NCBI GenBank assembly: GCA_945917985.1
Contig: CAMEIH010000024.1
Coordinates: 1-37,415 of the forward strand
From: an uncultured Clostridium sp.
GTDB lineage: Bacteria; Bacillota; Clostridia; Lachnospirales; Lachnospiraceae
DNA: 37,415 nucleotides
Direction: 5' to 3'
The translations under genes and the position numbers were made by a program. The notes beneath the pieces are model-generated. The model did not search any database. It saw only the letters and a list, made by a program, of their open reading frames with translations, and had not been told where the DNA came from. Below are positions 184 to 6,779 of this stretch, piece by piece; position 1 is the first letter of the stretch, and every line of letters begins with the position of its first letter.

Positions 184-1128
184 ATGGACAAGATCGCAGT
201 CTTAATTCCATGCTATAACGAGGAGAAAACCATTGCAAAGGTAGTTGCAGACGCTAAGGCTGCACTTCCGGAGGCAGTGATTTATGTATACGACAACAAT
301 TCCACGGACCGCACCGCAGAGCTTGCGAAGGCTGCAGGAGCGGTGATCCGCCATGAGTACATGCAGGGAAAAGGAAATGTGATCCGCAGGATGTTCCGGG
401 AGATTGAGGCAAGATGCTATATCATGGTGGATGGTGATGACACCTATCCCATGGAATTTGCACCGGAAATGGTGGACAAGGTGTTAAACCACAATGCAGA
501 TATGGTGGTGGGTGACAGACTTTCCTCCACTTATTTTTCCGAGAACAAGCGTCCTTTCCACAACATGGGAAATTCTCTGGTGCGCTCCAGCATTAACCGT
601 CTCTTCGGTTGTGATGTGAAAGATATTATGACAGGCTTTCGCGCTTTCAGCTACGGCTTTGTAAAAACCTTTCCCGTTCTTTCCAAGGGCTTTGAGATTG
701 AGACGGAGATGACCATTCACGCGGTGTACAATCATATGCAGATTGACAATGTAGTCGTGGAATACAGGGACAGACCGGAAGGAAGTGTCTCTAAATTGAA
801 TACTTATTCGGACGGTTTCCGGGTGCTTGGCACAATCTTCCGGCTTTACAGGGATTATAAGCCTTTTGGCTTTTTCAGCCTCTTTGCCCTTTTGCTGGCA
901 GTGATTTCTGTTTTGTTTTTTATTCCGGTATTGTTCGAATATATTGCAACAGGGCTGGTGTTAAAATTTCCTACCCTGATTGTGTGCGGTTTTGTGATGC
1001 TGGCAGCCATTCAATCTTTCTTTGCGGGACTGATGCTTTCCAATATGGCACAGAAGAACAGAAGAGATTTTGAATATCGTTATACCCTTGTTTGTGAAAA
1101 AGAGAGAAGACAGCGGGAGGAAGAGTAA
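184..1128 (+). CDS. GT2 family glycosyltransferase, polyprenyl-phosphate sugar transferase type with two C-terminal TM helices
   Basis: This 314-residue protein probably transfers a sugar from a nucleotide donor to a membrane polyprenyl phosphate, working at the inner face of the membrane (DPM1/GtrB/CsbB-like). It opens with the GT-A strand VLIPCYNEE (residues 6-14), followed by the YDNNSTD loop (36-42) and the metal-binding DGDD at 83-86. Residues 230-290 hold two hydrophobic helices, the usual membrane anchor of GtrB/CsbB relatives. The ATG at 184 has GAAGGAG about 11 bp upstream. The next gene starts 3 bp after the stop, so the two are almost certainly co-translated. In Bacillus, CsbB loads GlcNAc on undecaprenyl phosphate and the GT-C protein YfhO passes it to lipoteichoic acid; the neighbouring GT-C-like protein suggests a similar division of work here. 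The sugar cannot be read from the sequence. Confidence 0.85.
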   Translation: MDKIAVLIPCYNEEKTIAKVVADAKAALPEAVIYVYDNNSTDRTAELAKAAGAVIRHEYMQGKGNVIRRMFREIEARCYIMVDGDDTYPMEFAPEMVDKVLNHNADMVVGDRLSSTYFSENKRPFHNMGNSLVRSSINRLFGCDVKDIMTGFRAFSYGFVKTFPVLSKGFEIETEMTIHAVYNHMQIDNVVVEYRDRPEGSVSKLNTYSDGFRVLGTIFRLYRDYKPFGFFSLFALLLAVISVLFFIPVLFEYIATGLVLKFPTLIVCGFVMLAAIQSFFAGLMLSNMAQKNRRDFEYRYTLVCEKERRQREEE

Positions 1129-1131
1129 GCT

Positions 1132-4100
1132 TTGAAGAAATTAGTTCAGAGATGGTATGTGTTTGCTGCGGCAGGATTTGTCCTGTTCGCAGCACTTGTA
1201 TTTTGTATTTTCGGAGAGGGCAGCATTATTTCGGTACATGATAATCTGGATTTGTTTGTTGCTCAGTTTCAAATGTTGAAAAATACGGACTCTTTTTTTG
1301 CACACGGAGTGGATGTGCCTTTTCTCGGTGGAATCAGCAGGGATAATCTTCCGTCGGAATTTTCTCTTTATACGATACTTTATATGATTCTGCCCTCCTA
1401 CTGGGCTTATATAACAGGATATCTTCTGAAGATTATTATCGCTATTTTTTCGGCAGTACTTCTCGCCAGGGATTTTTGCGGGGAAAAGTATGAAAAATAT
1501 AAGCCTATTGTGTATATGACCGGACTTGCCTATGGCGTTCTGAATGTTTTTCCGGCTTTCGGTATTCCCTTTGCGTCCATTCCTCTTGCGGTGTATCTGG
1601 TAAGGAAGATTTATAAGACGCCATCTCTCAAATGGTATGCCGCACTATTTGTGTATCCCTTTGTTTCTTATTTTTCCTATTTCGGATTATTTATTCTGGC
1701 CTATATGGCAGTTTCTCTGATCTGGCTGTGGATCAGGGACAGAAAATTCCCATTGAGAATTCTGACAGCCATACTTGTATTGTCTTTAGGGTGTATTGTC
1801 TTTGAATACAGGTTGTTTGATGTAATGCTCTTCGGAGAGGAGGAAACCATTCGTTCCACTATGGAGGCGGGGAGCTTCGGGTTTGCAGAGATTGTAAAAA
1901 CAATTCTGGAAGGCTTTACAAAAGGAATGTTCCATGCGGAAAGTGTCCACACTTATCTGGTGATGCCGGTCTGCCTTCTCTATTTCCTGTATCTGAACAT
2001 TGGTTATATCAGAAATAATAACGGAAAAGCAATTTTTCATGATACCTTCAACCTGCTTATGCTGGTTCTTTTGTTCAACAGTGTGATATATGGCGTTTAT
2101 TACTTTGAACCCTTCCGTAAGCTGGTAGAAACAATCTGTCCTCCTCTGACGGGATGGCAGTTTAACCGGACTATCTTTTTCAATCCCTTTGTCTGGTATG
2201 CGGCCTTTTTCCTGGTGCTGAAACGAATGTATGATGCGGATAGGAAGCTGTGGAAGTATATAGCAAACGGATTGTCTATTCTTGCCGTGCTTGTGATTGT
2301 GCTCTCCGGCACCAGATACAATGATCTGTATCATACCTGTGTGGCAAAGGCGTATGAACTGTTAAAGGGAAAGCAGTCCAATGATTTAAGCTATGAGGAG
2401 TTCTATTCCACAGAGCTTTTTGAAAAGGCAAAGGAAGATTTACAGTACAGCAGCCAATGGTCGGCAGCATACGGTTTCCATCCTGCTATTCTGGAATATA
2501 ATGATATTGCTACGGTGGACGGGTATCTTGGCTTTTATGAACAGTACTATAAAGAAGATTTTCGTAAGGTGATTGCACCTGCCCTCGAGAGAGTTCCCGA
2601 GTCAAGGGAGTATTTTGACTCATGGGGTGCCAGAGCTTATCTATATTCCGGTACGGATCTGTCTATTGTGGCAGCTGTCCGGGACTATCAGGTGACAGAT
2701 CATGATATTTATATTGACATTGACGCGTTCAAGGCGATCGGTGGAAGATATATTTTCTCACGGATTGAACTTTCCAATGCCGGGGAAGCAGGACTTTCAT
2801 TAGCCGGCGTTTATACGGATGAGAGTTCTCCCTATACCTTATATGTTTATCAGACAACTTCAAGGTACCAGTCAAAGGAACATTCACAGCTTACTTTTGA
2901 TGAGATGAAGGAGCTTGCTTACGACGAAAATAAACTTTATCAGGATATTGATGAGATTACGGCATTAGAGGAAGCAGCACTGGAAAGTGAAGAGGCAAAG
3001 GAAGAAGAGAAGGTTCTTGCGCTTTATGCGGAAATTGTGGATGAGATCACAAGGGCTCAGACTTGCTATACCCTTGCCGAGATCAGGTATTATCAAAATG
3101 TGCTGGATGAAGAGAATGCCGCAAGACAGCAGGAGCTTCTTGAAGATGTCATGGATATGCAGGATAAAGCTTACAGCGCACTTGCAAAGATATGCCAATC
3201 TCCTTATAAGGATACAATGGAGACCGTGCTGGAAGCTTCCGTAGTGCAAAGTCTCGCGGAATATGAGGAAATGACAGAGGAAGAGAAAGAATTTTATCTG
3301 AAGGAAAACAGTCTTACGCAGGAATATGAGCAGGCTGCCCAGGAAGACTATTATTTTACATATGATGGAGAAGAATGGAGTTTTTCACGTTTCATGGAGG
3401 AATACGACCGGCTTGATCAGGATGATTACATAGAGATTTATCAGGGATTATATCGGGAAAAGAACAGTGTCCTGGGAGAAATTTATCTGGAGCTTGTACA
3501 GCTCCGCAATGAAAGTGCAAAGCTGGAAGGGTACGATAATTATGCGGAATATGCTTACGATGCTCTTTATGTGAGAGATTATTCCATTGAGGATGTGGAA
3601 GGGCTGCTTCAGGAAATCAAGAAGAGCGTGGTTCCTGCCCTGTATGATGTTCAGGAGATTTATTACTCCACGGACTTTTCGCCGCTTTATGATCTGCCGC
3701 AGACCACGGCAAAGGAGAGATTTGAAAAGGTAAGTCCTTATCTTGAGCAGATAGATTCTGAACTCATGGAATGCTTTGAATATATGGAGAAATATGAGCT
3801 GTATGATATGGACCCGGGAGAGGGAAAAGCGGACATCGGATTTACAGTTACACTCCCTTACTATAATGATGTCTTTATTTTTGATTCACCCTATGGTCAT
3901 TATTACGATTACACCACAGCTATCCATGAGTTTGGTCATTATAATTATTTTTTCCACAATACGGAGGATATTCTGACACAACAGAGCAATATTGATCTCA
4001 ATGAGATCCATTCACAGGGACTTGAAATGCTTTACTATGATTATGCAGATGAACTCCTTGATGGGGAAGAAGGAGAATTATTCCAATTTATGGAAGTGTA

Positions 4101-4533
4101 TCAGATGGCAGAAAATACAGTGGAGGCAGCAATGGTTTCCGAATTTGAAATTCAGGTATATGAAAATCCTGGTATGACTCTTGCGGATATGAATAAACTG
4201 TATTACAATCTCGCGGCTAAGTATGGGATCTATTATGACGAAAATATTTCGGAGGTTTACTCCTGGGTGGACATATCCCATATTTTTAGCGCACCCTGTT
4301 ATTATATCGGGTATTCCACATCTGCTTTCTCCAGTCTTGATCTTTTGACGCTTTCGGAAGAAAACCGTCATGAGGCTGTGGAAAAGTATATGGAGCTTAC
4401 CACGCTTCCCTCTTATGTTCCCTACTGCGCAGCGGTGGAGTATGTGGGATTAAGAGATATTTTTGAGAAGGGAACAGCAAAGGAAATCATACAGGAAACA
4501 GTGAATATTCTGGAAGCATCTGCAGAAAACTGA
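1132..4533 (+). CDS. Fusion protein: multi-pass YfhO/DUF6044-like GT-C membrane region plus C-terminal M3 zinc metallopeptidase
   Basis: The gene encodes 1133 residues, twice the size of either parent family. Residues 8-27 form the first membrane helix, followed by an extracytoplasmic VHDNLD motif (35-40) that resembles the acidic first loop of GT-C glycosyltransferases. Further membrane segments run to about residue 400, then a soluble region to about 580. From about 588 the protein reads like an oligoendopeptidase-F/M3 peptidase: an acidic helical lobe, then the zinc site HEFGH (932-936) and third-ligand candidate E958 in LNEIHSQ. The start is TTG, with GGGAGG 11-16 bp upstream inside the previous gene; no ATG is better placed. 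The reading frame is continuous across the junction. If the topology is as in DUF6044/YfhO proteins, the peptidase faces outside the cell. The GT-C assignment is inference; the M3 assignment is firm. Confidence 0.8.
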   Translation: MKKLVQRWYVFAAAGFVLFAALVFCIFGEGSIISVHDNLDLFVAQFQMLKNTDSFFAHGVDVPFLGGISRDNLPSEFSLYTILYMILPSYWAYITGYLLKIIIAIFSAVLLARDFCGEKYEKYKPIVYMTGLAYGVLNVFPAFGIPFASIPLAVYLVRKIYKTPSLKWYAALFVYPFVSYFSYFGLFILAYMAVSLIWLWIRDRKFPLRILTAILVLSLGCIVFEYRLFDVMLFGEEETIRSTMEAGSFGFAEIVKTILEGFTKGMFHAESVHTYLVMPVCLLYFLYLNIGYIRNNNGKAIFHDTFNLLMLVLLFNSVIYGVYYFEPFRKLVETICPPLTGWQFNRTIFFNPFVWYAAFFLVLKRMYDADRKLWKYIANGLSILAVLVIVLSGTRYNDLYHTCVAKAYELLKGKQSNDLSYEEFYSTELFEKAKEDLQYSSQWSAAYGFHPAILEYNDIATVDGYLGFYEQYYKEDFRKVIAPALERVPESREYFDSWGARAYLYSGTDLSIVAAVRDYQVTDHDIYIDIDAFKAIGGRYIFSRIELSNAGEAGLSLAGVYTDESSPYTLYVYQTTSRYQSKEHSQLTFDEMKELAYDENKLYQDIDEITALEEAALESEEAKEEEKVLALYAEIVDEITRAQTCYTLAEIRYYQNVLDEENAARQQELLEDVMDMQDKAYSALAKICQSPYKDTMETVLEASVVQSLAEYEEMTEEEKEFYLKENSLTQEYEQAAQEDYYFTYDGEEWSFSRFMEEYDRLDQDDYIEIYQGLYREKNSVLGEIYLELVQLRNESAKLEGYDNYAEYAYDALYVRDYSIEDVEGLLQEIKKSVVPALYDVQEIYYSTDFSPLYDLPQTTAKERFEKVSPYLEQIDSELMECFEYMEKYELYDMDPGEGKADIGFTVTLPYYNDVFIFDSPYGHYYDYTTAIHEFGHYNYFFHNTEDILTQQSNIDLNEIHSQGLEMLYYDYADELLDGEEGELFQFMEVYQMAENTVEAAMVSEFEIQVYENPGMTLADMNKLYYNLAAKYGIYYDENISEVYSWVDISHIFSAPCYYIGYSTSAFSSLDLLTLSEENRHEAVEKYMELTTLPSYVPYCAAVEYVGLRDIFEKGTAKEIIQETVNILEASAEN

Positions 4534-4565: not shown

Positions 4566-4598
4566 AAAGCAGGAGACATTTAAGTTGTCTCCTGCTTT
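4566..4598. terminator. Bidirectional intrinsic terminator between convergent operons
   Basis: A perfect 13-bp stem (4566-4578 with 4586-4598) has a 7-nt loop. It lies 33 bp after the metallopeptidase fusion stop and 17 bp after the stop of the opposite-strand PRPP synthetase. Read on the minus strand the stem is followed by TTTTATT; on the plus strand the T-tract is shorter (TTTCT). It therefore serves the minus-strand operon better. Confidence 0.85.
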
Positions 4599-4614: not shown

Positions 4615-5799
4615 TTAAAGTTCTCCTTTTTTATATCTGGAGACGACTTTCTGAATACGTTCATTAGGATTTAAGAGATCACTGATAGAGGCATCATGGT
4701 TTAAGGTATCGATCAGGTAGGCGATGTACTTACTCATGTCGCAGTTGATATACCATTCCCTGCCAAGAAGCTCGGGAGTCTGATAGATCAGATTGGTGGT
4801 AAGAACTCTGTCGATCACACCGCTCTCATAAGCCTTATCAAAACGTTCCAGTCCGTTGGTAAATAAACCGAAGGAAGCACAGATAAAAATCTTTCTGGCT
4901 TTACGCTCTTTCAGAGCAGTGGCAACCTCGATCACACTCTCGCCGGAGGAGATCATGTCGTCGATAATAATCATATCTTTGCCTTCCACGGAGGAACCAA
5001 GGAATTCGTGGGCAACGATGGGGTTGCGTCCGTCAACCACTCTGGTGTAATCACGTCTCTTATAGAACATACCCATATCAAGACCAAGTACGTTTGCCAT
5101 ATAGATAGCACGGCTCATGCCGCCTTCATCAGGACTGATCACCATCATGTGATCGGAATCAAGCTGCAGATCCTTTACATTTTTCAAAAGGCCTTTGATA
5201 AACTGATAGGTAGGCTGTACCGTTTCAAAGCCATGTAAGGGAATTGCGTTCTGAACTCTGGGGTCGTGGGCATCAAAGGTAATGATGTTATCCACACCCA
5301 TACGAACCATCTCCTGAAGGGCGAGTGCGCAGTCAAGAGATTCTCTGGCAGTTCTCTTATGCTGTCTGCTTTCGTAGAGGAAAGGCATAATAACAGTGAT
5401 TCTGCGGGCCTTGCCGCCTACTGCCGCAATAATTCTTTTTAGGTCCTGATAATGGTCATCCGGGGACATATGATTTTCATGTCCGCAGAGGGAATAGGTT
5501 AAGCTGTAGTTTGCCACATCTACAAGAAGGTAGAGATCTGTTCCCCGGACGGATTCCAGAATCATACCTTTTGCTTCGCCCGATCCGAATCTGGGCACCT
5601 TTGCTTTTAAAATATAGGAATCTCGCTGATAGCCTGCAAAAGCAAGACTGTTCTTATGCTCGCTTTCTCTGACGGTCCTCCATTTCACCAGATAGTCATC
5701 GACTTTTTCACCGAGGGCCTTACAGCCTTCCAGAGGGATAATACCGAGAGAACCTACGGGTATTGTCTCCAAATTTCTTGTTTCTTCACGCTGAGCCAT
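4615..5799 (-). CDS. prs: Ribose-phosphate pyrophosphokinase (PRPP synthetase), long divergent type
   Basis: The enzyme makes phosphoribosyl pyrophosphate from ribose 5-phosphate and ATP, for nucleotide, NAD, histidine and tryptophan synthesis. With the ATG at 5799 it has 394 residues, against about 315 for classic Prs. Family marks are SRQHKR (equivalent of the ATP-site RQDRK region), FDAHDPR, VISPDEGG and the PRPP loop IIIDDMISSGES at 277-288; classic Prs has DDIIDTAGT at that point. The usual N-terminal KIF..GNSN segment is absent, so this is a distant branch. I chose 5799 because GTGAGG lies about 7 bp upstream and 8 bp separate it from the dnaC-like stop; an in-frame ATG at 5868 would overlap dnaC and has no clear ribosome site. 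It is the last gene of a dnaD-dnaC-prs operon. Confidence 0.85.
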   Translation of the reverse strand: MAQREETRNLETIPVGSLGIIPLEGCKALGEKVDDYLVKWRTVRESEHKNSLAFAGYQRDSYILKAKVPRFGSGEAKGMILESVRGTDLYLLVDVANYSLTYSLCGHENHMSPDDHYQDLKRIIAAVGGKARRITVIMPFLYESRQHKRTARESLDCALALQEMVRMGVDNIITFDAHDPRVQNAIPLHGFETVQPTYQFIKGLLKNVKDLQLDSDHMMVISPDEGGMSRAIYMANVLGLDMGMFYKRRDYTRVVDGRNPIVAHEFLGSSVEGKDMIIIDDMISSGESVIEVATALKERKARKIFICASFGLFTNGLERFDKAYESGVIDRVLTTNLIYQTPELLGREWYINCDMSKYIAYLIDTLNHDASISDLLNPNERIQKVVSRYKKGEL

Positions 5800-5807
5800 G
5801 AGATACC

Positions 5808-6779
5808 TCACTTTCTGTTCTGCTGTCTTTTTTTGAACATCCGGATATCGGGTCCGGTTATTTTGCATATTTCATAATTGCTGGTAATTCTGGAAAAGAT
5901 CCGGTCGGAATAACGGTTCCTGAAATCTTCCAGAGAAAGATTGGTGGAAATAATGGTAGCCTTCTGACGAAGATGTCTGTCATTGATGAGAGAAAACAAT
6001 TCGGAATTTACAAGGTTGTTGGTATATTCCGTTCCAAGATCATCAATGATCAGCAAATCGCACTGAAATAAATCCTCATATTCTTTATGAAGTTCATCCG
6101 CATTTTTATAGTCAAACTTAAATTTGGATAACGTATCAAAGAGTCCGGCGGCACTGAAATAAATGACAGAATGTCCATTTTCAATGAGCTCCTTTGCCAC
6201 ACAGCCGGAAAGAAAGGATTTACCTGTACCCACTGTACCATAAAAGAATAAATTATGGTAGTCCGAATTAAAATTATTGATAAAATTTTTGCAGGTCAGG
6301 ACAGTATTTTTAAAGCGGGTCAGATCCTCACCCTGATAATAATCGTAGGAAAGAGTAGAAAAATTTTCACTTTCAAGCATTTCGCGGATTCCGGATTGTT
6401 GATAAAGAAGTGTAATTTCCGCCTGCTTAAAGCAATGGCATTTGACACCTTCGCAGTAGCCTGTATCCTTACAATCAGGACAATCGTAAACCGGTTCCAG
6501 GTAATTTTCCGGAAGCCCGGATTTCAGAAGAAGCTTTTTCTTTCTGTCAGAGAGTTCACGAATGGTCTGTTTCAGTGTGACAAGAGCATTTTCGTCTCCT
6601 TCAAGAAGCCTTCTGCCCTGCGCTACAGAAACAGAAGAAACAGTCTCATCAAGCTCCTGATAACCGGCCACATGAGAATAAACATAAGCAGTACGCTCTT
6701 CAAGCAGTTTCCGGTTTCTGTTCTGCTTTGCCTCAAAGCCTTTTATAATGGTATCATACTGGGAATTTGTGAGTGCCAC
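5808..6779 (-). CDS. dnaC: DnaC/DnaI-like AAA+ helicase loader
   Basis: This 323-residue ATPase should load the replicative helicase onto DNA at the origin or at restarted forks. The N-terminal part (1-130) is helical and carries a cysteine cluster C100, C103, C109, C114 and C116 that could bind zinc. The AAA+ core has Walker A GTVGTGKS (181-188) and Walker B LLIIDD (242-247). The start is GTG at 6779, with AAAGGAG 6-8 bp upstream partly overlapping the stop of the dnaD-like gene; the gap between the two genes is 11 bp. Pairing with a DnaD protein matches the Firmicute primosome, where DnaD, DnaB and DnaI recruit the helicase. The product could equally be named DnaI; the family call itself is firm. 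Confidence 0.9.
   Translation of the reverse strand: MALTNSQYDTIIKGFEAKQNRNRKLLEERTAYVYSHVAGYQELDETVSSVSVAQGRRLLEGDENALVTLKQTIRELSDRKKKLLLKSGLPENYLEPVYDCPDCKDTGYCEGVKCHCFKQAEITLLYQQSGIREMLESENFSTLSYDYYQGEDLTRFKNTVLTCKNFINNFNSDYHNLFFYGTVGTGKSFLSGCVAKELIENGHSVIYFSAAGLFDTLSKFKFDYKNADELHKEYEDLFQCDLLIIDDLGTEYTNNLVNSELFSLINDRHLRQKATIISTNLSLEDFRNRYSDRIFSRITSNYEICKITGPDIRMFKKRQQNRK

Follow-up and report, generated by a model that had tools for sequence, protein, structure and literature searches.

Why should a multi-pass membrane protein that resembles a sugar-transferring enzyme carry a complete zinc metallopeptidase at its C-terminus? The question is raised by one gene in a 37,415-nucleotide stretch of DNA from an uncultured Clostridium sp. 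of the Lachnospiraceae (contig CAMEIH010000024.1, positions 1 to 37,415, of assembly GCA_945917985.1; hereafter, the window), in which a DUF6044 membrane protein and an M3 peptidase are joined in one reading frame. At a probability of about 0.6, we consider the product to be a cell-surface M3 oligopeptidase that uses a DUF6044 protein, GT-C-like and a putative glycosyltransferase partner, as its membrane anchor. The sugar and peptidase activities would then be tethered to each other and not obligately coupled.

The fused gene and its distribution

Positions 1132-4533 of the window form a single open frame of 1133 residues with 0 internal stops (Table 1). The Pfam model of DUF6044 (PF19510) matches residues 5-575 with E 1.9e-174 and 581.7 bits against a cut-off of 27, and the match is full-length, covering model positions 6-563 of 564. 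The predicted structure of this half has a predicted local distance difference test score (pLDDT) of 90.7 and a predicted template modelling score (pTM) of 0.90, and the residues D37 and D40 are invariant in all 22 DUF6044 proteins aligned. The Pfam YfhO model matched 0 of 22 DUF6044 halves at E up to 1, in a search where the filters of HMMER may hide weak matches, and a sequence-profile search of DUF6044 against the PDB gave 0 matches at E up to 5. A control search with PF19510 found one DUF6044 match in Bacillus subtilis, which we take to be YkoS.

For the second half, the NCBIfam model of M3 oligoendopeptidases (TIGR02289) matches residues 609-1128 with E 9.7e-56 and 189.5 bits, below its cut-off of 442. 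No Pfam M3 model was listed for the window protein at E up to 0.001, and PF01432, which matched 2 of the 11 members of A1, was not listed for the window's M3 half at E up to 0.01. The sub-cut-off score lowers the claim of membership in TIGR02289, not that of membership in family M3. Oligoendopeptidase F (2h1j) matches the fused protein in a PDB search with E 3e-31, H932, E933, H936 and E958 are all present, and the HExGH motif and the glutamate of the third zinc ligand recur in all 17 fused proteins. The M3 fold extends over the whole domain, and the peptidase is confidently folded in the predicted structure (mean pLDDT 90.3, pTM 0.85).

The initial annotation had described one intact gene of two families, with no stop, frameshift or extra membrane helix at the switch between them, and this description is borne out by the open frame, the domain matches and a hydropathy scan that finds no membrane segment after residue 391. 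The motifs VHDNLD (35-40) and HEFGH (932-936) and the residue E958 are where it had placed them, the peptidase half is as complete as it had supposed, and the switch, which it put near residue 585, falls somewhere from about residue 576 to residue 586. It had called the membrane half YfhO- or DUF6044-like; the second name stands and the first does not, since none of the 22 halves matches YfhO. Among the hidden Markov models that it proposed for checking the protein, DUF6044 was recovered and YfhO and PF01432 were not, TIGR02289 being matched only below its cut-off.

The fusion recurs in other genomes. Of 37 genomes searched in the window's genus, 32 gave a match; 31 carry a DUF6044 gene, fused in 11 and unfused in 20, and in G013 the sole match is an M3 peptidase of the cytosolic type. 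One genome (G027) has a second, unfused DUF6044 copy in addition to the fused one, and the one named isolate of this genus, Parablautia muri, has the unfused form. A second genus carries the fusion in all six genomes examined, which brings the total to 17 genomes in two genera. Searches with PF19510 across the family and the order, with at most three candidates scored per genome, gave matches in 43 of 397 and 28 of 344 genomes, respectively, and the only DUF6044 frames longer than 1000 amino acids found there (in G000 and G270) belong to the same two genera. An 803-amino-acid DUF6044 frame in G369 had no M3 match.

An assembly chimera, or read-through of two adjacent genes, might be suspected in a draft genome of 111 contigs such as that of the window, and a count of fused against separate genes had been proposed as a check. 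With the fusion in 11 of 31 genomes of one genus and 6 of 6 of the other, a chimera or frameshift is ruled out as its source; the frame has no stop and the ratio of nonsynonymous to synonymous substitution rates (dN/dS) is far below 1 on both sides of the junction in the pairs used (see below), so that this explanation keeps next to no probability.

Origin of the peptidase half and history of the fusion

When 397 genomes of the family were searched with an M3 profile, 114 had matches at E up to 1e-20, and the strongest matches outside the fused proteins (E 2.9e-82 or lower) are standalone proteins. We assembled 18 M3 proteins of surface type, 17 from this search (L082-L098) and one (L040) from another. 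An N-terminal hydrophobic stretch was found by scan in 16 of the 18, as against 0 of 10 M3 proteins of the cytosolic type; in L086 the stretch is visible by eye alone, and L093 has none when read from its first start codon. A lipobox-like cysteine is present in 8 of the 18 by eye and a C-terminal helix in 6 by scan, and three (L092, L093 and L096) have C-terminal LysM domains recognized by Pfam; lipobox, helix or LysM would be the anchor of these proteins. The LysM-bearing proteins are perhaps a wall-binding form of M3.

In a tree of 45 M3 domains the 17 fused domains form one clade (bootstrap and Shimodaira-Hasegawa-like approximate likelihood ratio test, SH-aLRT, 100/99; recovered in 100% of 200 bootstrap trees), which is nested in the 18 surface-type sequences, and the 10 cytosolic-type sequences stand apart (100/100). 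Left out of this tree were L106, L039 (the same as L082) and profile matches not returned as loci, including one of surface type (G241:C64). The M3 half apparently descends from a branch of Lachnospiraceae peptidases that look exported and anchored in the envelope, and the earlier statement that the M3 relatives are secreted or cytosolic does not hold in that form, the fused domains being nested in an envelope-type branch. The surface-type proteins resemble the fused half in being its nearest branch of the tree, in the N-terminus of their mature part and in their apparent export; they differ in having a lipobox-like cysteine, C-terminal helix or LysM domain of their own where the fusion has a DUF6044 protein. 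The solved oligoendopeptidase F-type chains (2h1j, 3ahm and 3sks) consist of M3 alone, with 564-567 residues, and differ from the fused protein in this respect. Descent of the M3 half from a phage or virus was also considered and rejected: of 139 pattern matches in viral contigs, 0 were confirmed.

The junction agrees with such a descent in its position. Unfused proteins of the window's genus stop at about residue 576, with SPYTLYVY or nearly so and a further 2-8 residues (two rows printed as unfused in this comparison of C-termini, L052 and L079, are partial copies of fused loci). Homology of the fused M3 domains begins level with the starts of the two cytosolic-type proteins aligned, and in surface M3 proteins the stretch aligned with the window's KEHSQLTFDEM is where the mature part begins. 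The histidine of KEHSQLTF, a few residues before the M3 start, is common to 9 of 14 surface M3 rows; by eye it lies at most some 15 residues past the hydrophobic stretch in L082, L083, L084, L092 and L096, and further from it in the lipoproteins. By alignment, then, the DUF6044 protein occupies the position that the signal peptide has in exported M3 proteins. A Tx(S/T)xY run is found at the junction in 15 of the 17 fused proteins, from both genera, with G014 and G480 diverging. These comparisons suggest that an M3 domain of the exported, envelope-anchored branch was joined to the DUF6044 C-terminus with almost no added residues, the membrane protein replacing both signal peptide and anchor.

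The M3 module has come and gone, because the fused DUF6044 halves do not form one clade. The fused state has to change at least 5 times on a DUF6044 tree of 40 rows and 6 times on a quick tree of 57 rows; placing the 11 fused DUF6044 proteins of the genus in one clade against 19 unfused ones is rejected by the approximately unbiased test (p-AU 2.5e-9). The duplicate loci L049, L052, L054, L057, L078 and L079 were dropped from the 57-row tree, and L076, L041 and other distant unfused rows from the 40-row tree; L003 and L007 contain masked bases. The most puzzling case is G014, in which the DUF6044 half is close to unfused neighbours and the M3 half forms a long separate branch. Both the M3 and the DUF6044 trees can be accounted for if the M3 module arose once and losses or exchanges came after; it would then have been lost or exchanged several times while the DUF6044 gene was retained.

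Of 15 pairs compared, the three closest show purifying selection on both halves. The dN/dS values in these pairs were 0.103, 0.087 and 0.076 for residues 1-390, 0.166, 0.068 and 0.048 for residues 391-575, 0.113, 0.115 and 0.054 for the M3 half, and 0.237, 0.247 and 0.068 for the linker, the third pair being itself at a synonymous divergence (dS) of 0.9-2.0. The twelve other pairs were not used because their dS is near or beyond saturation. When the gene of the window (1132-4533) is compared with L002, from a closely related genome, dS is 0.04-0.11 in the DUF6044 half and 0.31 in the M3 half, a contrast that hints at recombination inside the gene.

Of 32 residues that are invariant in the 22 DUF6044 proteins, 31-32 are kept by 16 of the 17 fused proteins. 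The remaining one, the 1074-amino-acid protein of G480 (L076/L112), has lost 11 of the 32 together with a membrane stretch and has HExGH and the ligand glutamate intact, and the same genome has a second, unfused DUF6044 gene on another contig (L077). Of the individual hints that the membrane half can act purely as an anchor, this protein is the strongest.

Topology and the relation between the two halves

If the product is an anchored surface peptidase, its M3 half has to lie outside. GT-C glycosyltransferases have 8-13 membrane helices; here a plain hydropathy scan counts 8 membrane segments in the window protein and in L077, 9 in L010, L014 and L074, and 7 in the decayed L076, and an alignment-based count gives 11, 12 or 14 according to the threshold, the count of 14 including segment 446-462. 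Charge favours an N-terminus inside for 11 segments and outside for 12, and an outer C-terminus for both. Among the loops, the lysine plus arginine value peaks at 364-375, just ahead of the last helix (4.2, vs 3.9 for the next highest). Because the nearest relatives look exported and this loop is the most positive, the M3 half is most likely on the outer face, and the outside display of the peptidase supposed by the initial annotation is favoured to that extent, the count of 14 segments pointing inside. The upstream GT2 enzyme would load a sugar on undecaprenyl phosphate, as in the CsbB-YfhO and YkoT-YkoS model of sugar transfer (described in the available portions of PMC8035078, PMC5836110, PMC11081497 and PMC11898649); a flippase could be provided by the two GtrA-family genes found at other places in the genome, and the DUF6044 half, still paired with the GT2, would move the sugar to an acceptor in the envelope outside. 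The M3 half would bind zinc on the outer face and cut short peptides near the membrane.

Several points weigh against an anchored surface peptidase. The topology derives from hydropathy and charge, and the number of helices is unsure, ranging from 8 to 14 by method; with 14 segments charge favours an N-terminus inside and an inner C-terminus, and the count of 8 in the plain scan is also even. A peptidase in the cytoplasm, with the C-terminus of the membrane half inside, would be the outcome, and we regard it as very improbable given the outer C-terminus favoured by 11 or 12 segments, the charge of loop 364-375 and the apparent export of the nearest M3 branch. The exact sister of the fused M3 clade has weak support (92/70), and the decayed membrane half of G480 is a single case. 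Not every fused M3 need be active, because 37 residues are missing inside the M3 half of the G014 protein. Lastly, the near-direct fusion and the pTM of 0.85 also fit a coupled enzyme, and a fusion seemingly as old as the split of the two genera, present in 6 of 6 genomes of the second, looks like more than a passing accident.

Such a coupled enzyme would trim whatever peptide or protein is glycosylated by the DUF6044 half, as the initial annotation had supposed, or clear peptides released there. The halves would then form a bifunctional envelope enzyme, a glycosyltransferase and a peptidase at the outer face acting in physical coordination on the same or neighbouring products. Besides the confident model and the apparent age of the fusion, the presence of both halves on one polypeptide, the shortness of the junction and its similarity across 15 of 17 proteins, and purifying selection on both sides speak for coupled processing. 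However, DUF6044 occurs without M3 in 20 of the 31 genomes that carry it in this genus, and a module that comes and goes in this way weakens the idea of trimming; G480 keeps its M3 domain on a decayed membrane half; and the acceptors named for such systems in the accessible text of PMC8035078 are glycopolymers, not peptides. We hold coupled processing to be unlikely, and equally so a bifunctional enzyme of this kind.

It is more doubtful still that the M3 half is non-catalytic, a binding or structural domain that holds, for example, the acceptor for the glycosyltransferase. In some larger GT-C enzymes the acceptor is believed to be bound by carbohydrate-binding domains outside the cell (PMC8035078, in part), and the gap in the G014 protein and the residue two past the third zinc ligand, changed from H to C in G014 and from H to D in G476, could be read in the same way. 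The zinc ligands, HExGH and the third-ligand glutamate, are nevertheless kept in 17 of 17 fused proteins, which argues against a domain for binding only, since such a domain would not need them.

The locus and related systems

The features of the locus are collected in Table 1. The fused gene starts three bases after the GT2 gene, whose product matches Pfam PF00535 with E 2.5e-20 and NCBIfam AglJ with E 7e-59, below the cut-off of the latter, and has hydropathy peaks at 233-251 and 258-276.

Table 1. Positions of the fused gene, its parts and its neighbours in the window
Feature	Positions	Strand	Remarks
Fused gene DUF6044-M3	1132..4533	+	TTG at 1132 to stop at 4533; 1133 aa; fusion in 17 genomes
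DUF6044 half, residues 1-576	1132..2859	+	Crosses the membrane several times up to about residue 391; the rest (about 392-575) is a domain with no clear membrane helix
DNLD, residues 37-40	1240..1251	+	Follows the first membrane helix; both aspartates, D37 and D40, are invariant
Junction SRYQSKEHS, residues 577-585	2860..2886	+	Near start marks the end of unfused orthologues; C-termini compared, M3 N-termini aligned
M3 metallopeptidase half, residues 586-1133	2887..4530	+	
HEFGH zinc-binding motif, residues 932-936	3925..3939	+	HE[FY]GH in 17/17 fused proteins
E958	4003..4005	+	Third zinc ligand by alignment; kept in 17/17 fused proteins
Shine-Dalgarno-like GGAGG	1116..1120	+	11 bases 5' of the TTG start; read directly
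GT2 (GT-A type) glycosyltransferase, CsbB/AglJ-like	184..1128	+	Two C-terminal hydrophobic segments; directly upstream partner gene
Terminator-like perfect 11-bp inverted repeat	4568..4596	.	Between the fused gene and the convergent prs; read directly
prs-like phosphoribosyl pyrophosphate (PRPP) synthetase	4615..5868	-	NF005299, 605 bits over cut-off; convergent neighbour and locus marker, outside the fusion

In the window's genus the fused gene is flanked by GT2 upstream and prs downstream at 11 of 11 loci. Among 19 unfused loci of this genus that were compared (the unfused G021 not among them), 14 show both neighbours with 38-336 bp between DUF6044 and prs; in the five others, whose surroundings are incompletely visible, GT2 alone is seen in three (L020, L028 and L038) and neither neighbour in two (L012 and L029). 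Because the gap is 38-336 bp there is no room for an M3 gene before prs, and a separate, adjacent M3 gene was rejected as the alternative state for these 14 loci. Genes like dnaI and dnaD, and murC, come after prs in the window and in G003, G016, G027 and G032. The genes murF and ddl lie upstream in G014 and, in the second genus, in G479, and neither is directly upstream in G480; such ordinary genes give no sign of a peptide polymer. In the second genus a gene of 566-577 codons lies 3' of the fused gene in three of four loci (G270, G479 and G480), and it belongs to Pfam Acyl_transf_3 in both cases tested (L114 4698-6407 and L112 10858-12591); with a membrane acyltransferase after the fused gene, the glycan may also be acylated. 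The fused gene of G476, also of the second genus, stands elsewhere, without a GT2 gene.

Two PF04138 (GtrA-family) genes over cut-off are present in the window's genome, on other contigs. An adjacent GT-A enzyme with C-terminal helices and GtrA-type flippase genes, the parts of a multi-component transmembrane glycosylation system, are thus both found. The likeness to CsbB-YfhO-GtcA and YkoT-YkoS consists in a GT2 enzyme with two C-terminal hydrophobic segments beside a multi-pass protein, in the acidic motif after the first helix and in the GtrA-family genes of the genome. These systems differ in that no peptidase is mentioned for them ('protease' occurs 0 times in the portion of PMC8035078 available) and in that DUF6044 has no Pfam YfhO match. 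GT-C enzymes have a DxD or modified DxD motif in an outer loop; DNLD has its two invariant aspartates at a spacing other than that of the motifs quoted in the excerpted PMC5836110, where the target of YkoS/YkoST is left as an open question. On the side of the peptidase, PepF of Mycoplasma hyopneumoniae (MHJ_0522) is alike in being a putative surface oligoendopeptidase F that cuts short peptides; it differs in having no signal peptide and in being a single protein of about 70 kDa, and so has no second half of such size (PMC6787215, partial text). For streptococci, pheromone degradation is given as intracellular in the part of PMC9173638 available.

Both halves belong to known families, and what is seen here, in two genera, is the fusion of two domains and no new pathway; the initial annotation's 'undescribed system' overstates it. 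Literature on DUF6044 was not found in the one collection searched. Among the matches listed, we found neither a DUF6044-M3-type architecture (a fusion of GT-C-like protein and peptidase) nor a link between undecaprenyl phosphate-sugar glycosylation and surface proteolysis, nor an M3 branch that swaps anchors, though no search was aimed at LysM-bearing M3. The M3 branch described here appears to change its anchor, from lipobox-like cysteine, terminal helix or LysM to a membrane enzyme, and, if the anchor reading is right, an enzyme would here be serving as a scaffold for display. Genomes with and without the module in one genus are natural pairs for a test of joint action between a peptidase and a poorly known class of glycosyltransferase, and a peptidase kept at the outer face of a glycosyltransferase could be a handle on the site where the latter acts.

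The context of standalone surface M3 genes (16 loci: L039, L040 and L120-L133) points to no functional partner. M3 itself is the sole family present throughout, and no neighbour family occurs in more than 4 loci; the next neighbour clusters are found in 4 and 3 loci (by eye sensor-like and ABC-ATPase-like, both common) and the rest in 2 or fewer. A different one-frame fusion was met in G443, where an 882-amino-acid protein (L106) joins an alpha/beta hydrolase of the Abhydrolase_3 family to an M3 peptidase of the cytosolic type.

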